Origin: Acidobacteriota bacterium
GTDB taxonomy: Bacteria > Acidobacteriota > Blastocatellia > Pyrinomonadales > Pyrinomonadaceae
Assembly (NCBI GenBank): GCA_020199995.1
Contig: JAIVJM010000001.1
Coordinates: forward strand, 1-32,259
DNA length: 32,259 nt
Direction: 5' to 3'
Positions 2,114 through 28,186 of the stretch are shown here, piece after piece. The position numbers and the translations under genes were made by a program. Within the stretch, counting starts at the first letter, position 1, and each line of letters starts with the position of its first letter. The notes under the pieces are model-generated. The model worked only from the letters and a program-made list of their open reading frames with translations. It had not been told where the DNA came from and did no database searches.

Positions 2114-2186
2114 AATGATGAATGATGAATAAGAAGCAAGTCGCCTTCTTAATTCATCATTCATCATTCATCATTCATCATTTTTT
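2114..2186. terminator. Bidirectional terminator built from seven-base tandem repeats
   Basis: The left arm (2114-2136) contains two copies of GATGAAT plus AAGAAG. The right arm (2145-2168) is its complement with a single extra A, giving a stem of about 23 bp around an 8-base loop. The ATTCATC unit is repeated four times in a row (2152-2179), running past the stem, and is followed by six Ts (2181-2186). Convergent genes end on both sides (SpoVR at 2108, cysteine dioxygenase at 2186), so it can terminate either transcript. Confidence 0.75.
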
Positions 2187-2776
2187 CAGATTGTCGGGTT
2201 CCAGGAGTTCATGCAGAGCGTGCTGACGGAGTCGCGCTGGCCGACGCGGTAGATGTTGAGGCTGGTGAGGGGCGGGGAGTAGAGGTGGAGAGTGACGAGG
2301 TCCCGGCCGCTCACGTCGGGGTTGCCGAGCTGGTGGATGTCGGGGATGTCCGCGCCCGTGACGAGTCCGGGCGACCACTCGCGCGCTCTCTCGTAGACGA
2401 GCCCACGCTCCTCTTCGAGCGTGAAGACGGTCTCCCACATGAAGCCTTCGAGGACGCGCACGGAGCCGTAGGAGCCGTTGTGGTCGTGGATCGGCGTGCG
2501 TTGTCCGGGCCGCCAGCAGAGCACGAGCAGCTCGGCGAACTCGTTGATAAAGACACGGTGGCGCGCGTAAGTCGCCTCCTTGAAGCCGACGTAGGGGCGC
2601 AGCTCCGCGCGCTCCAGCCGCACGTCGCGCATCCATGTGTCCAACTCGGCAAGCAGCGGCCTCCGGCGCAGGGCCGCCAATTCCCCGACCAGAGATTCGA
2701 GCGAGAAGCGCGCTGCCGGCGCCTCTCCGGACGAGGGCTGCGTGGACGTGTGCGCTTGCGCGTCGGTCGTGGACAT
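2186..2776 (-). CDS. Cysteine dioxygenase type I family protein
   Basis: The 196-residue cupin-fold protein matches bacterial cysteine dioxygenase, a cytosolic non-haem iron enzyme that oxidises L-cysteine to cysteine sulfinate with O2. The iron-binding histidines are visible as HDH (H97, H99) in RPGQRTPIHDHNGSYG and H148 in IPDIHQLGNP. Y166 in LHLYSPPL fits the conserved active-site tyrosine. The position that is cysteine in the Cys-Tyr crosslink of mammalian enzymes falls in GSYGSVRVLEG and appears to be glycine, as in many bacterial homologues. A related 3-mercaptopropionate dioxygenase cannot be excluded. The first 25 residues are a disordered Ser/Thr/Pro/Ala-rich tail. The ATG at 2776 follows a GAGAGG about 13 bases upstream. 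Confidence 0.82.
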   Translation of the reverse strand: MSTTDAQAHTSTQPSSGEAPAARFSLESLVGELAALRRRPLLAELDTWMRDVRLERAELRPYVGFKEATYARHRVFINEFAELLVLCWRPGQRTPIHDHNGSYGSVRVLEGFMWETVFTLEEERGLVYERAREWSPGLVTGADIPDIHQLGNPDVSGRDLVTLHLYSPPLTSLNIYRVGQRDSVSTLCMNSWNPTI

Positions 2777-2918
2777 GTGTCGGTCTCTACCTCTCGAAGA
2801 ATAATGTGAAGCGTGGACGCTCCCGCGGCCAATGATAAATCTAATCCGTCGTATTCCGAAAGGGAAGTCATAGAAGTTTCACTTCCCACCCCCACCATCT
2901 TTCCCATAGACTCATGCC

Positions 2919-4241
2919 ATGAGTGTGTCCCGACGGCACTTGCTCCTCTGGGCATCAATGGGGGTGGTTTGCTTCTCGCCCGGCGCTGTCGGCGCGTTGC
3001 CTGCCGTCCGGTATGCGCCCGCCGCGGGGGCGCTGCTGGTCTTCGCCGCCTACGCCTTCGGCCCCGCGCGACCGCCGTACGCGAGACAGGCCGCGCTCTT
3101 TCTCCTCTCGATCTGCTTCGCCGTGACGCTCTTCGACCTCGCCGCGCGCCCGCTGCTTTTTTACCTGTTCGAGGTCAGGCCAGCGGAGCGTTACATTTAC
3201 CGCTGGCCGCCGCTGCCGCGACTGCAACGCTACACCGCGGGCGTGACGTTCGAGGGGGTGACGTATGGAGACCTCGCGGCAATCTCAGGGCGCAGGGACT
3301 GGCGCGAGGAGAGGCGTGTCAGGTTCGTAACCGACGCGTACGGCTTCCGGAATGAGCCGTCCCTCGGGAGCGAGCCGGCGCGCCCGCTCGACGTGATCGT
3401 GCTCGGAGACTCGTTCGGTGTCGCGGGCGGGACGAGTCAGGAGGACACGCTGGCCGGCCTGCTGGCGCGCGACTACGGGCTGAGCGTGTATAACCTGTCG
3501 ATCTCCAGAGAGAACCCGTTGCAGCAATACGCCAACCTCCTGCTCGAAGGCCCGAGACTGAAGACTCGGGAGGGGACTTGCGTCCTGTGGCTCATCTTCA
3601 CGGGTAACGACCTTGACGACCCGTACTATCCGGAGCTGGCGAATCCGCGGCCCGAACCGCCGGGGCTGCGGGCGCGGCTCGCCGCGGGCTTCAATGACTT
3701 CAGGTCTCGCTCACCCGTGCGCCGCCTCCTCTCCCCCGGCGGGGCGGGGCAGATAGTCGAGAGGACGTTCGTTGATGGGCGGCGCATCCTCTTCTCAGCG
3801 CCCTATGCCGAGCGCAGGGGCCGCACGGCGGAAGAGGTGAGTCGCCATCCGAACTTCGAGAGCCTCAAGGCGACACTCGACGCGATGGGGAGGCTGGCCG
3901 GGGAGAGTCGCCTGACGGTCGCGGTGGCTCTCGTCCCGAGCAAGGAGGAGGTTTACTCGTGGGCGCTCGACGGCGCGACTCCGTGGTCTACGGCGAGGGG
4001 GCCGTCGGGCTTCGCCGTCGTGATGCGGGAGTTGTGCGAGCGGCGAGGGTTTCGTTTCCTTGACCTCAAGCCGACGTTGGTGGAGGCGTCGGGTCGCGTC
4101 TTCAAAGAGTCGGGCGCGCTGCTTTGGTGGCGCGACGACACGCACTGGAATGGGTTGGGGCAGCGAGAGGCCGCAGCGGTCATCCATGAGTCGCTGCTGG
4201 GCGGCAAGGGGGGACAGCAGGGCGGGCGGCGAAAGCCTTGA
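2919..4241 (+). CDS. Membrane-anchored SGNH/GDSL hydrolase family protein
   Basis: The N-terminus carries two to three hydrophobic segments (about residues 8-27, 33-50 and 57-85). A periplasmic-type SGNH domain follows. Block I is VIVLGDSFGVAGGT with nucleophile S165, block III is IFTGNDLDD (GND 229-231), and block V is DDTHWNGLGQREAA with Asp406 and His409 of the DxxH signature. This combination resembles AlgX/AlgJ-like or DHHW-type SGNH proteins, which add or remove acyl groups on envelope polysaccharides; the substrate here is unknown. Length is 440 residues. The ATG at 2919 has no clear Shine-Dalgarno. It is followed by an SRPBCC gene and two small membrane genes on the same strand. Confidence 0.8.
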   Translation: MSVSRRHLLLWASMGVVCFSPGAVGALPAVRYAPAAGALLVFAAYAFGPARPPYARQAALFLLSICFAVTLFDLAARPLLFYLFEVRPAERYIYRWPPLPRLQRYTAGVTFEGVTYGDLAAISGRRDWREERRVRFVTDAYGFRNEPSLGSEPARPLDVIVLGDSFGVAGGTSQEDTLAGLLARDYGLSVYNLSISRENPLQQYANLLLEGPRLKTREGTCVLWLIFTGNDLDDPYYPELANPRPEPPGLRARLAAGFNDFRSRSPVRRLLSPGGAGQIVERTFVDGRRILFSAPYAERRGRTAEEVSRHPNFESLKATLDAMGRLAGESRLTVAVALVPSKEEVYSWALDGATPWSTARGPSGFAVVMRELCERRGFRFLDLKPTLVEASGRVFKESGALLWWRDDTHWNGLGQREAAAVIHESLLGGKGGQQGGRRKP

Positions 4242-27325: not shown

Positions 27326-28077
27326 GGCTTCGGCTCGTCGAGGAATCTTTTGCGGTCGCGCTCGATCCAGATTTCAAGCTCGACCGAGGCCTTCTCCAGC
27401 TCGTCGCTGTTGAGCAGGCCGCGCCGGAGCGCCTCGAAGAAGGCGCGCGTGCGCATGTTGTAGGCGAGCTTTTCGTAAGCCTCGTGAGGCGTGCCCTCGG
27501 GCGTCGAGGTGAAGAGCTTTTCGTAGAGCGTGGCGAGGCGGCTCTCGACGCCGCGTAAGGAAAGAGAGCACTTGCGCGCAATCGCCCAGTTCGAGAGGCC
27601 GAGCGCGAGGTAGTAGAGCGCCTCGGCCTCGAACTCTGTGAGGAGCGGTCGCTTGAAAGAGTCCTTGAAGGCCGGGTCGATCATGTCCGCGCCGTCTTCC
27701 AAGACCGCGGCGACGAAGCGCAGAAAGCGCGACTCGGGGTTGTTCTTATGGATGAAGCCGTAGGCGGGCGGCGGCTCGACCGCGCGGATGATCTTGCGTA
27801 TCTCGTTGATGTAAATCTCGTGCGGGAACTGCGTCCAGAAGATGATGCGCGCCGCGGGGAATTCGCGCCACACCGCGCGCGCCGCCTTGACGCCCGACAA
27901 GCGCGGCATCTGGATGTCGAAGACGCACAATTCGGGCCGCTCTTTGAGCGCAAGCTGCACGGCCTCCTCGCCGTCCGCCGCCTCGACGACGGGCGCGTGC
28001 GCCGGGAACTCACGCTCCAAAAGCTCACGCAGGTAACGCCGCTGCGCCACGTTGTCTTCGGCAATCAGGATGGACAT
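27322..28077 (-). CDS. Response regulator with REC domain and LuxR-type HTH
   Basis: From ATG at 28077 the product is 251 residues. REC domain: acidic pocket E7-D8 in ILIAEDNVAQ, phospho-acceptor D54 in CVFDIQMPRLSG, T82 in FWTQFP, K111 in FIHKNNPE. A LuxR-type helix-turn-helix follows (about 145-190: FEAEALYYLALGLSNWAIARKCSLSLRGVESRLATLYEKL), then an unusual helical C-terminal extension of 60 residues rich in Leu and Glu. The open frame continues upstream to 28194, but that extension (DIRHPTSDL) is a translation of the seven-base repeats, so 28077 is preferred. It is the first gene of a two-gene unit with the propeller kinase, its obvious partner. Confidence 0.9.
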   Translation of the reverse strand: MSILIAEDNVAQRRYLRELLEREFPAHAPVVEAADGEEAVQLALKERPELCVFDIQMPRLSGVKAARAVWREFPAARIIFWTQFPHEIYINEIRKIIRAVEPPPAYGFIHKNNPESRFLRFVAAVLEDGADMIDPAFKDSFKRPLLTEFEAEALYYLALGLSNWAIARKCSLSLRGVESRLATLYEKLFTSTPEGTPHEAYEKLAYNMRTRAFFEALRRGLLNSDELEKASVELEIWIERDRKRFLDEPKP

Positions 28078-28083
28078 GAGATC

Positions 28084-28186
28084 AGATGTCGGATGTCGAA
28101 TGTCAGAGGTCAGTAAGCACGGTCTCGGATTCGACGCTCTACGCCGCCGTGCTCCGATTCTAGCAGAACTCTCACGTCCGACATCT
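28084..28186. repeat. GATGTCG seven-base repeats and inverted repeat upstream of the response regulator
   Basis: Four seven-base units (GATGTCG, GATGTCG, AATGTCA, GAGGTCA) run at 28085-28112. The outer arms 28084-28096 and 28174-28186 match at 12 of 13 bases. A nested 7-bp hairpin (AGCACGG 28116-28122 with CCGTGCT 28147-28153) lies between. The element sits immediately before the response regulator start, in its leader. Confidence 0.7.

Follow-up and report, generated by a model that had tools for sequence, protein, structure and literature searches.

A 32,259-nucleotide stretch of the genome of a soil Acidobacteriota bacterium (the window; contig C204 in a 5.3 Mb assembly of 352 contigs) contains several sites at which seven-base tandem repeats are arranged as inverted repeats, with a different seven-base word at each site. 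How can the length of the unit be kept when its sequence is not? The initial annotation listed seven such sites and took the combination of constant period and variable word as an argument against copied elements, favoring a mechanism such as template-switching repair or selection for hairpins. The analysis described here confirms that the period-7 hairpin arrays in the genome of the window are real and far above other periods. In addition, the words, loops, and edges common to many loci, together with the change of words at orthologous gaps, suggest that the arrays probably result from the turnover of dispersed hairpin families at gene 3′ ends, which spread as units in a manner resembling repetitive extragenic palindromic (REP) elements and miniature inverted-repeat transposable elements (MITEs). 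In the following, L### denotes sampled stretches and G### denotes genomes, G000 being that of the window.

Period-7 hairpins in the window and in its genome

The arrays and arms in the window were checked with Tandem Repeats Finder (TRF) and an inverted-repeat scan, with the following results.

2108..2186, strand., heptamer hairpin GATGAAT/ATTCATC (period-7 arms 2113-2183), folding z-score -7.1
11993..12060, strand., heptamer hairpin AGCTGTT, folding z-score -7.7
13471..13572, strand., heptamer hairpin AGTTTTC, folding z-score -6.8
18972..19043, strand., composite heptamer hairpin with outer unit AGAAGTC and inner word GAACGAT, z-score -6.8
27151..27316, strand., nested composite with an AGGCAAA array outside (27158-27187) and a GGCTTGA hairpin inside (27216-27301)
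28084..28186, strand., weak or degraded heptamer hairpin, GATGTCG grading into AGAGGTC, 12-bp stem, z-score -2.0
7633..7704, strand., GC-rich hairpin with no clear heptamer element, period-7 fraction 0.42

Clear period-7 hairpins are present at five of the seven sites (2113-2183, 11993-12060, 13471-13572, 18972-19043, and 27151-27301), with stems of 18-28 bp and period-7 match fractions of 0.61-0.74. The RNA folding z-scores were -6.8 to -7.7 for the 2113, 11993, 13471, and 18972 sites, and -3.9 for the composite 27151 site. The site at 28084-28186 has a 7-mer array (TRF score 33) yet forms a weak hairpin, and 7633-7704, where a strong GC-rich hairpin shows period 7 only weakly, was therefore left out of the heptamer count. 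The window had no Rfam match at the gathering threshold.

Since the first sample of the own genome (L009-L028) had been selected by word match, densities were taken from an unbiased sample, consisting of the window and L121-L140 (239,737 bp, not chosen by word). In this sample, exact lag runs of at least 14 numbered 14 for period 7, two for period 6, one for period 11, and zero for periods 4, 5, 8, 9, 10, and 12. Runs of at least 10 matches numbered 31 for period 7, 25 of them intergenic, as compared to 7, 8, 2, and 5 for periods 5, 6, 8, and 9, respectively, so that period 7 is far above the four periods against which the initial annotation had proposed to compare it. A second-order Markov control yielded 0 period-7 runs. 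Among 41 strong inverted repeats, the dominant period was 7 in 16 and 5 in one, and no other period was dominant in any. The density in this sample is 67 period-7 hairpins per Mb, corresponding to ~350 per genome by extrapolation. An excess of tandem 7-nt units, mainly intergenic, is thus present, as in the Xanthomonas repeats and the short tandemly repeated repetitive (STRR) sequences discussed below.

Word families dispersed within genomes

The proposal that each site has its own word holds within the window, but the words recur elsewhere in the genome. The ATTCATC word of the 2114 site is found at ~40 places (77 matches on both strands), and the AGTTTTC word also recurs in many places. Each genome contains many word families, mostly without G-tracts. 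The aligned copies of the CGTNAAT family have common edges (AAAAGCCG...CGGCTTTT) and similar loops (of the form AATAGAAAGAACAG..TTTCTCTATT); the copies thus have the terminal inverted repeats and the defined common edge that characterize MITEs. Furthermore, the loops of same-word copies were more alike than those of different-word copies in G000, G014, G042, and G043 (p = 8.6e-12 to 9.0e-6, with 8.6e-12 in G000). The outer 30 nt of same-word copies were not alike in G014. These results indicate that the word families were dispersed as units and are not purely local products, and the argument against copied elements does not hold.

The composite sites also have counterparts elsewhere. The order of AGAAGTC outside and GAACGAT inside, seen at 18972..19043, is also found at L012 19844, L125 14037, and L133 7710. 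At 27151..27316, a degenerate outer right arm, TTCCTTTTCTGCCTG, lies at 27302-27316, and the nesting of GGCTTGA within AGGCAAA is seen again at L011 3669-3776.

Template switching, one of the mechanisms named by the initial annotation, explains the mirrored arms and the constant unit, but not the common words, loops, and edges. If polymerase slippage and template switching at quasi-palindromes were the sole source, each hairpin would have arisen independently with no copying between loci. The constant unit length with variable words and the mirrored arms are consistent with this explanation, and 7 nt is perhaps a polymerase footprint, an earlier suggestion reported in PMC4679880. For the large families, however, it is contradicted by the recurrence of word, loop, and edges together at numerous loci, and as a general account it is very improbable. 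Such local processes may adjust the arrays, and small singleton words could arise in this manner.

Anatomy of the elements

The element is an inverted repeat of 40-130 nt, with the layout (heptamer)n - loop - (reverse-complement heptamer)n; the median stem is 27 and the median loop 23, and the loop of ~20 nt has a purine-rich 5′ side. The words consist of a fixed core with one or two free letters, as seen in CGTNAAT, GCAGTRA, AGTTTTN, and GATGAAT/GCGGAAT. An exact 10-mer reverse-complement partner was found within 180 nt for 130 of 193 arrays, and in 62 of 73 elements G outnumbers C in the 5′ arm.

A deviant letter in a unit of the 5′ arm was mirrored by the paired 3′ unit in 230 of 273 cases, as compared to an average of 77 and a maximum of 117 expected when the units of one arm were shuffled (500 trials). 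The detection of hairpins favors paired arms, yet this alone does not place the deviant units in register.

The same architecture was observed with units of 8, 9, and 10 nt, as exemplified by GACGCGGA, CTTTGCGT, CAGATTNNC, and TTCGTGTGNN (L141-L147 of G014, L171-L172 of G008, L237 of G023, and L102); such hairpins occur in G014, G008, G004, G023, and L102. It is possible, though rather unlikely, that the hairpins represent a distinct class of mobile or self-renewing elements, in which the unit length and the foldback geometry, and not the sequence, are recognized or generated. The word would then be free to change, allowing many sequence families of one architecture to exist side by side and to take over each other's sites, and the 8-, 9-, and 10-nt variants of related genomes would belong to this system, differing in step size.

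The possibility that the elements are stop-codon cassettes, in which the 7-nt period places stop triplets in the three frames of the 5′ arm, was rejected as a general rule. Stop triplets in the 5′ arm were strongly represented in G000 (202 vs 127 expected), and the effect was absent in G014, G011, and G017, with no excess when distinct words were counted (28 vs 28.4).

Position relative to genes

Gene calls were obtained with a simple codon-usage script. Of 73 elements in 631 kb of the own genome, 56 lie in tandem gaps, 9 in convergent gaps, 3 in divergent gaps, 1 within a gene, and 4 at contig ends. The hairpin edge is typically within ~10 nt of the upstream stop codon, and the stop codon lies inside the hairpin in 19 elements. 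The elements are thus located near stop codons and rare in divergent gaps, as are the repeats of the Xanthomonas and STRR type. In the window, the 2108..2186 hairpin, which lies in a convergent gap, immediately follows a SpoVR-like gene, whose stop codon is at 2106-2108, and reaches the stop side of a cysteine-dioxygenase-like gene at its other end. The 11993..12060 hairpin is flanked by a serine acetyltransferase-like gene and a small gene, both on the minus strand, and the 18972..19043 hairpin overlaps the end of an ABC-transporter gene.

This location raises the possibility of selection for any hairpin at a gene 3′ end or in a leader, where it would serve as a sequence-free terminator, an RNase barrier, or an insulator, with heptamers as an easy way to form a long stem. 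The position at stop codons, the rarity in divergent gaps, and the strong RNA folding are consistent with such selection, as is the occupancy of orthologous gaps by unrelated words described below. In Xanthomonas, G-quadruplex-forming repeats coincide with the start or the end of a transcript more often than control repeats do (PMC4692102). However, TTTT was present at the 3′ edge in just 38 of 216 elements (in G000, the edge was T-rich in 31 of 73), indicating that most of the elements are not intrinsic terminators. In addition, the murA hairpin lies downstream of a conserved promoter-like element, many orthologous gaps are empty in one species, and the period of 7, the common words, and the near-zero density in some relatives are left unexplained. 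Selection for a hairpin is thus distinctly unlikely to account for the arrays. Some of the heptamer hairpins may act as terminators, and the most likely cellular effect would be that of a strong RNA hairpin located after the stop codon, at mRNA ends or in leaders.

A second dispersed inverted-repeat family, which has no heptamers (GAGCCCC...GGGGC, with a GAAAGAAGT core), was observed at 16136-16354 of the window, where the stem is 99 bp, and at L124 7927-7990, L140 14767-14852, and L018 3077-3433. The copy at L018 apparently lies within the loop of a heptamer hairpin.

Word replacement at orthologous gaps

The initial annotation had proposed to compare orthologous gaps for a change of word under a constant period, and such a change was observed both at murA and between sister species. 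The features of the murA locus in the window, in addition to the hairpin at 13471..13572, are as follows.

13447..13456, strand +, murA promoter-like extended -10 element GTGCTAGAAT (putative promoter)
13572..14888, strand +, murA (UDP-N-acetylglucosamine 1-carboxyvinyltransferase), TIGR01072, 562 bits

The encoded protein is closest (87%) to those of gp4 Acidobacteria / Pyrinomonadaceae metagenome-assembled genomes (MAGs). The AGTTTTC hairpin lies between prmC and murA, downstream of the promoter-like element, and occupies the 5′ leader of murA as far as the ATG. The word in the prmC-murA gap is AGTTTTC in the window, GATGTCA in L029, GTGGTCA in L037, and GAGGTCA in L039, and the murA gap of L104, which has a different upstream gene, contains a word of the GGTGGTT/GGTGATT type. 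Five genera thus have five different period-7 hairpin words in this gap. In three near relatives (L030, L083, and L089), the gap has no hairpin, and the promoter-like GTGYTARAATCC and the ATG are kept. The GTGYTARAATCC element, of which GTGCTAGAAT is the form in the window, is conserved in relatives upstream of the hairpin and is a likely murA promoter in Blastocatellia. The extended -10-like GTGYTARAATCC was also observed upstream of murA in L029-L108, and a TGATAAGAT-type element in distant relatives. For the 11980-12066 gap, AGCTGTT is common to the window and L029, and words of the GGCAGTA/GCAGTAA type are found in L030 and L037.

The sister genomes G042 and G043 (A and B) were compared over ~79 kb of syntenic sequence with 85% identity. 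The comparison covered 61 orthologous gaps of 40 bp or more; 15 were occupied in both species, 4 in A alone, 4 in B alone, and 38 in neither; one gap with a hairpin in just one of the species is at A 62397. This table is approximate, since the array test was loose and one both-occupied gap (A 116545) was uninspected; words were called same or different by eye, with A 116545 counted as same-word. Different words were found in 8 of the 15 gaps occupied in both species, as follows.

GTTTCAG/AGTGACR (three gaps)
GAACGAT/AGTGACA
GAACGAT/GGATTTC
GCGGAAT/AAACAGG
GCAGTAA/AGTGACR
CGTGAAT/GGTAAAT

Co-occupancy by different words was above that expected under independence (p = 1.7e-4). Conservation of the loop under word change was not seen as a general rule; the loops of different-word orthologs were mostly unrelated, with only a small shift, indicating that most of the element was replaced, beyond the word. 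At one gap (A 152405 / B 139324), the replacement is half complete: the AAACAGG hairpin of B adjoins the surviving right arm of a GCGGAAT hairpin, which is whole in A, and L029 carries a GCGGATT-type word there. These results indicate that the unit length stays constant under a change of word, as the initial annotation had stated, and that the arrays are not ordinary conserved terminators, since orthologous sites often have different words.

In contig C79 of B, symmetric AGTGACG arms enclose a CGTGAAT hairpin at 9000-9145 and 129066-129222 (L191 and L197). The counterpart of the latter in the sister species is the inner CGTGAAT hairpin alone, the outer arms having been either gained or lost.

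Probable turnover of hairpin families

The abundance, period, mirroring, position, common loops, orthologous word change, and one half-replaced site were all observed directly, and the turnover of dispersed families would connect them in the following manner. Each genome hosts many word families, of which the arms, loop, and edges would spread together, as in REP elements and MITEs, via a putative mover. The family structure and the presence or absence at orthologous sites suggest that this spread occurs by insertion. The copies would survive where they are least harmful, a few nt from stop codons in tandem or convergent gaps and rarely in divergent ones. Copies would also decay, and new families would land in or beside old hairpins and displace them, so that the word turns over and the hairpin and its period stay. 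Selection on the hairpin, as RNA or as DNA, or copying from arm to arm would keep the arms complementary.

Several results weigh against this turnover. Insertion itself was not observed, and neither a transposase nor another mover was found in the sampled DNA. Target-site duplications were not found, direct flank matches of 4-9 nt being no more common than with permuted flanks, in a test whose sensitivity is limited by the fuzzy hairpin edges. Within the fraction of each genome that was sampled, no two whole copies were near-identical (best identity 91%), indicating that there was no recent burst in the sample. Moreover, the loop was recognizable despite the word change from CGTGAAT to GGTAAAT (score 0.20) and from GTGGTCA to GAGGTCA (0.25), and orthologous words were somewhat closer than unrelated ones (mean 4.03 vs 3.22, from non-independent pairs), both of which fit gradual change in place. 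Finally, wherever one stretch of A has GTTTCAG (three sites), B has AGTGACR, a pattern that suggests a more orderly process than random replacement.

Such change in place would take the form of concerted evolution, in which the hairpins are old and fixed, and a mutated letter spreads through the units and arms by slippage, unequal exchange, and arm-to-arm copying. Besides the related words and recognizable loops of the two pairs above and the elevated similarity of orthologous words, the mirrored deviations and the grading of words along the arm at 28085-28113 are as expected from this process. Conversely, the words and loops are unrelated in most different-word orthologs, the same word with similar loops is found at dozens of loci, some orthologous sites are empty, and one gap contains half of an old hairpin beside a new one. 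Concerted evolution in place is therefore unlikely as the main process, and the turnover of dispersed families is preferred.

The putative mover is unlikely to be either of two known kinds. The REP-like location, the dispersed hairpins, and the hundreds of copies would be consistent with REP elements moved by REP-associated tyrosine transposases (RAYTs; Y1/HUH transposases) or with elements moved by a reverse transcriptase. However, Y1_Tnp counts did not track the carriers, being zero in G005, 2-10 in other carriers, and often 9-16 in genomes with few or no hairpins. RVT_1 was absent from the heavy carriers G000, G011, and G014, and reverse transcriptase does not track the carriers. The REP tags GTAG/GGAG/CGTC were depleted near the edges (36 of 216 vs 59 in shuffled controls). 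Movement by either enzyme is thus scarcely credible. In the 12% of the genome that was sampled, distant complementary arms had no transposase between them. A candidate autonomous parent element between C12 18146 and 20674 was also rejected, as the region holds ordinary genes.

Distribution among relatives

A search of the own genome and its relatives with the AGTTTTC element gave 45-60 listed matches each in G003, G005, G011, G013, G014, and G017, 1-3 matches in five further relatives, and none in the remaining relatives. This single-word search underestimates the carriers, because genomes differ in the words they use. By direct sampling, the density of strict period-7 hairpins per Mb was 56 in G005, 73 in G013, 143 in G014, 162 in G017, and 250 in G011, and some period-7 hairpins are also carried by G009, G001, G006, G004, and G023. 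None were found in 20-40 kb samples of G012, G016, G019, G021, G022, and G025.

A plasmid search with the AGTTTTC element was not informative, returning only 26-base exact (ACTGAAA)n arrays in Enterobacter, Citrobacter, and Salmonella plasmids of ~60-140 kb. Each plasmid carries such arrays at one to seven positions, all unannotated (records H1-H20).

Comparison with known systems and significance

The closest precedent is the heptamers of Xanthomonas, which are inverted-paired near stop codons (PMC4692102). At 70-75 loci per genome there, the GGGAATC repeats are paired as inverted repeats, and 83% of the sites keep the repeat, whereas 16% lack it or have it strongly mutated (PMC4692102). In common with these and with the GGGGA(C/T)T repeats of Nostoc (PMC4692102), the present elements have a heptamer core with variable letters and hundreds of intergenic copies, lie within 50 bp of stop codons and often overlap them, are rare between divergent genes, and have the G-rich strand on the sense side after stops. 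In contrast, Xanthomonas and Nostoc have one G-quadruplex-capable word per genome, whereas the present genomes have many word families, mostly of words without G-tracts, and no dominant G-rich word. Here, the words are as a rule paired into hairpins, and for Xanthomonas no replacement of words at orthologous positions was reported (PMC4692102).

The STRRs of heterocystous cyanobacteria (Calothrix and others; cited in PMC4692102) are likewise intergenic tandem heptamers with several words per genome, but have been described as direct arrays, and only a few of the G-rich repeats in Nostoc PCC 7120 are capable of forming inverted repeats (PMC4692102). The TAACTGA repeats of Beggiatoaceae, cyanobacteria, and Bacteroidetes (PMC4679880) resemble the present elements in their intergenic heptamer arrays and patchy phyletic distribution, but consist of one word, repeated directly apart from one indirect case, and mostly lie immediately upstream of start codons. 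REP elements and bacterial interspersed mosaic elements (BIMEs) with their RAYTs (PMC3733652, PMC6006769) are also short, dispersed extragenic hairpins near gene 3′ ends; here, however, GTAG/CGTC were not enriched near the edges, there was no correlation with RAYTs, and the arms are heptamer arrays. MITEs are similarly short, gene-free, dispersed inverted repeats with edges common within a family, and differ in that here no target-site duplication was detected and no matching transposon was found. Three features are new in the present genomes: a large number of words in each, the general pairing into hairpins, and the replacement of words at orthologous sites. In agreement with the initial annotation, no description for Acidobacteria was found in the searched literature, which included few subscription journals.

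The repeats often fill the intergenic gaps of these MAGs, where they can yield spurious open reading frames, lead to false calls of terminators, and break assemblies. For cyanobacteria, Xanthomonas, and Beggiatoaceae, heptameric repeats have been on record for decades, but with neither an origin nor a mechanism. The present clade offers a high density (56-250 strict hairpins per Mb in the sampled carriers), many words, and sister gaps that represent the states before and after a change, so that whether such repeats are copied, made on the spot, or kept for the hairpin becomes directly testable.

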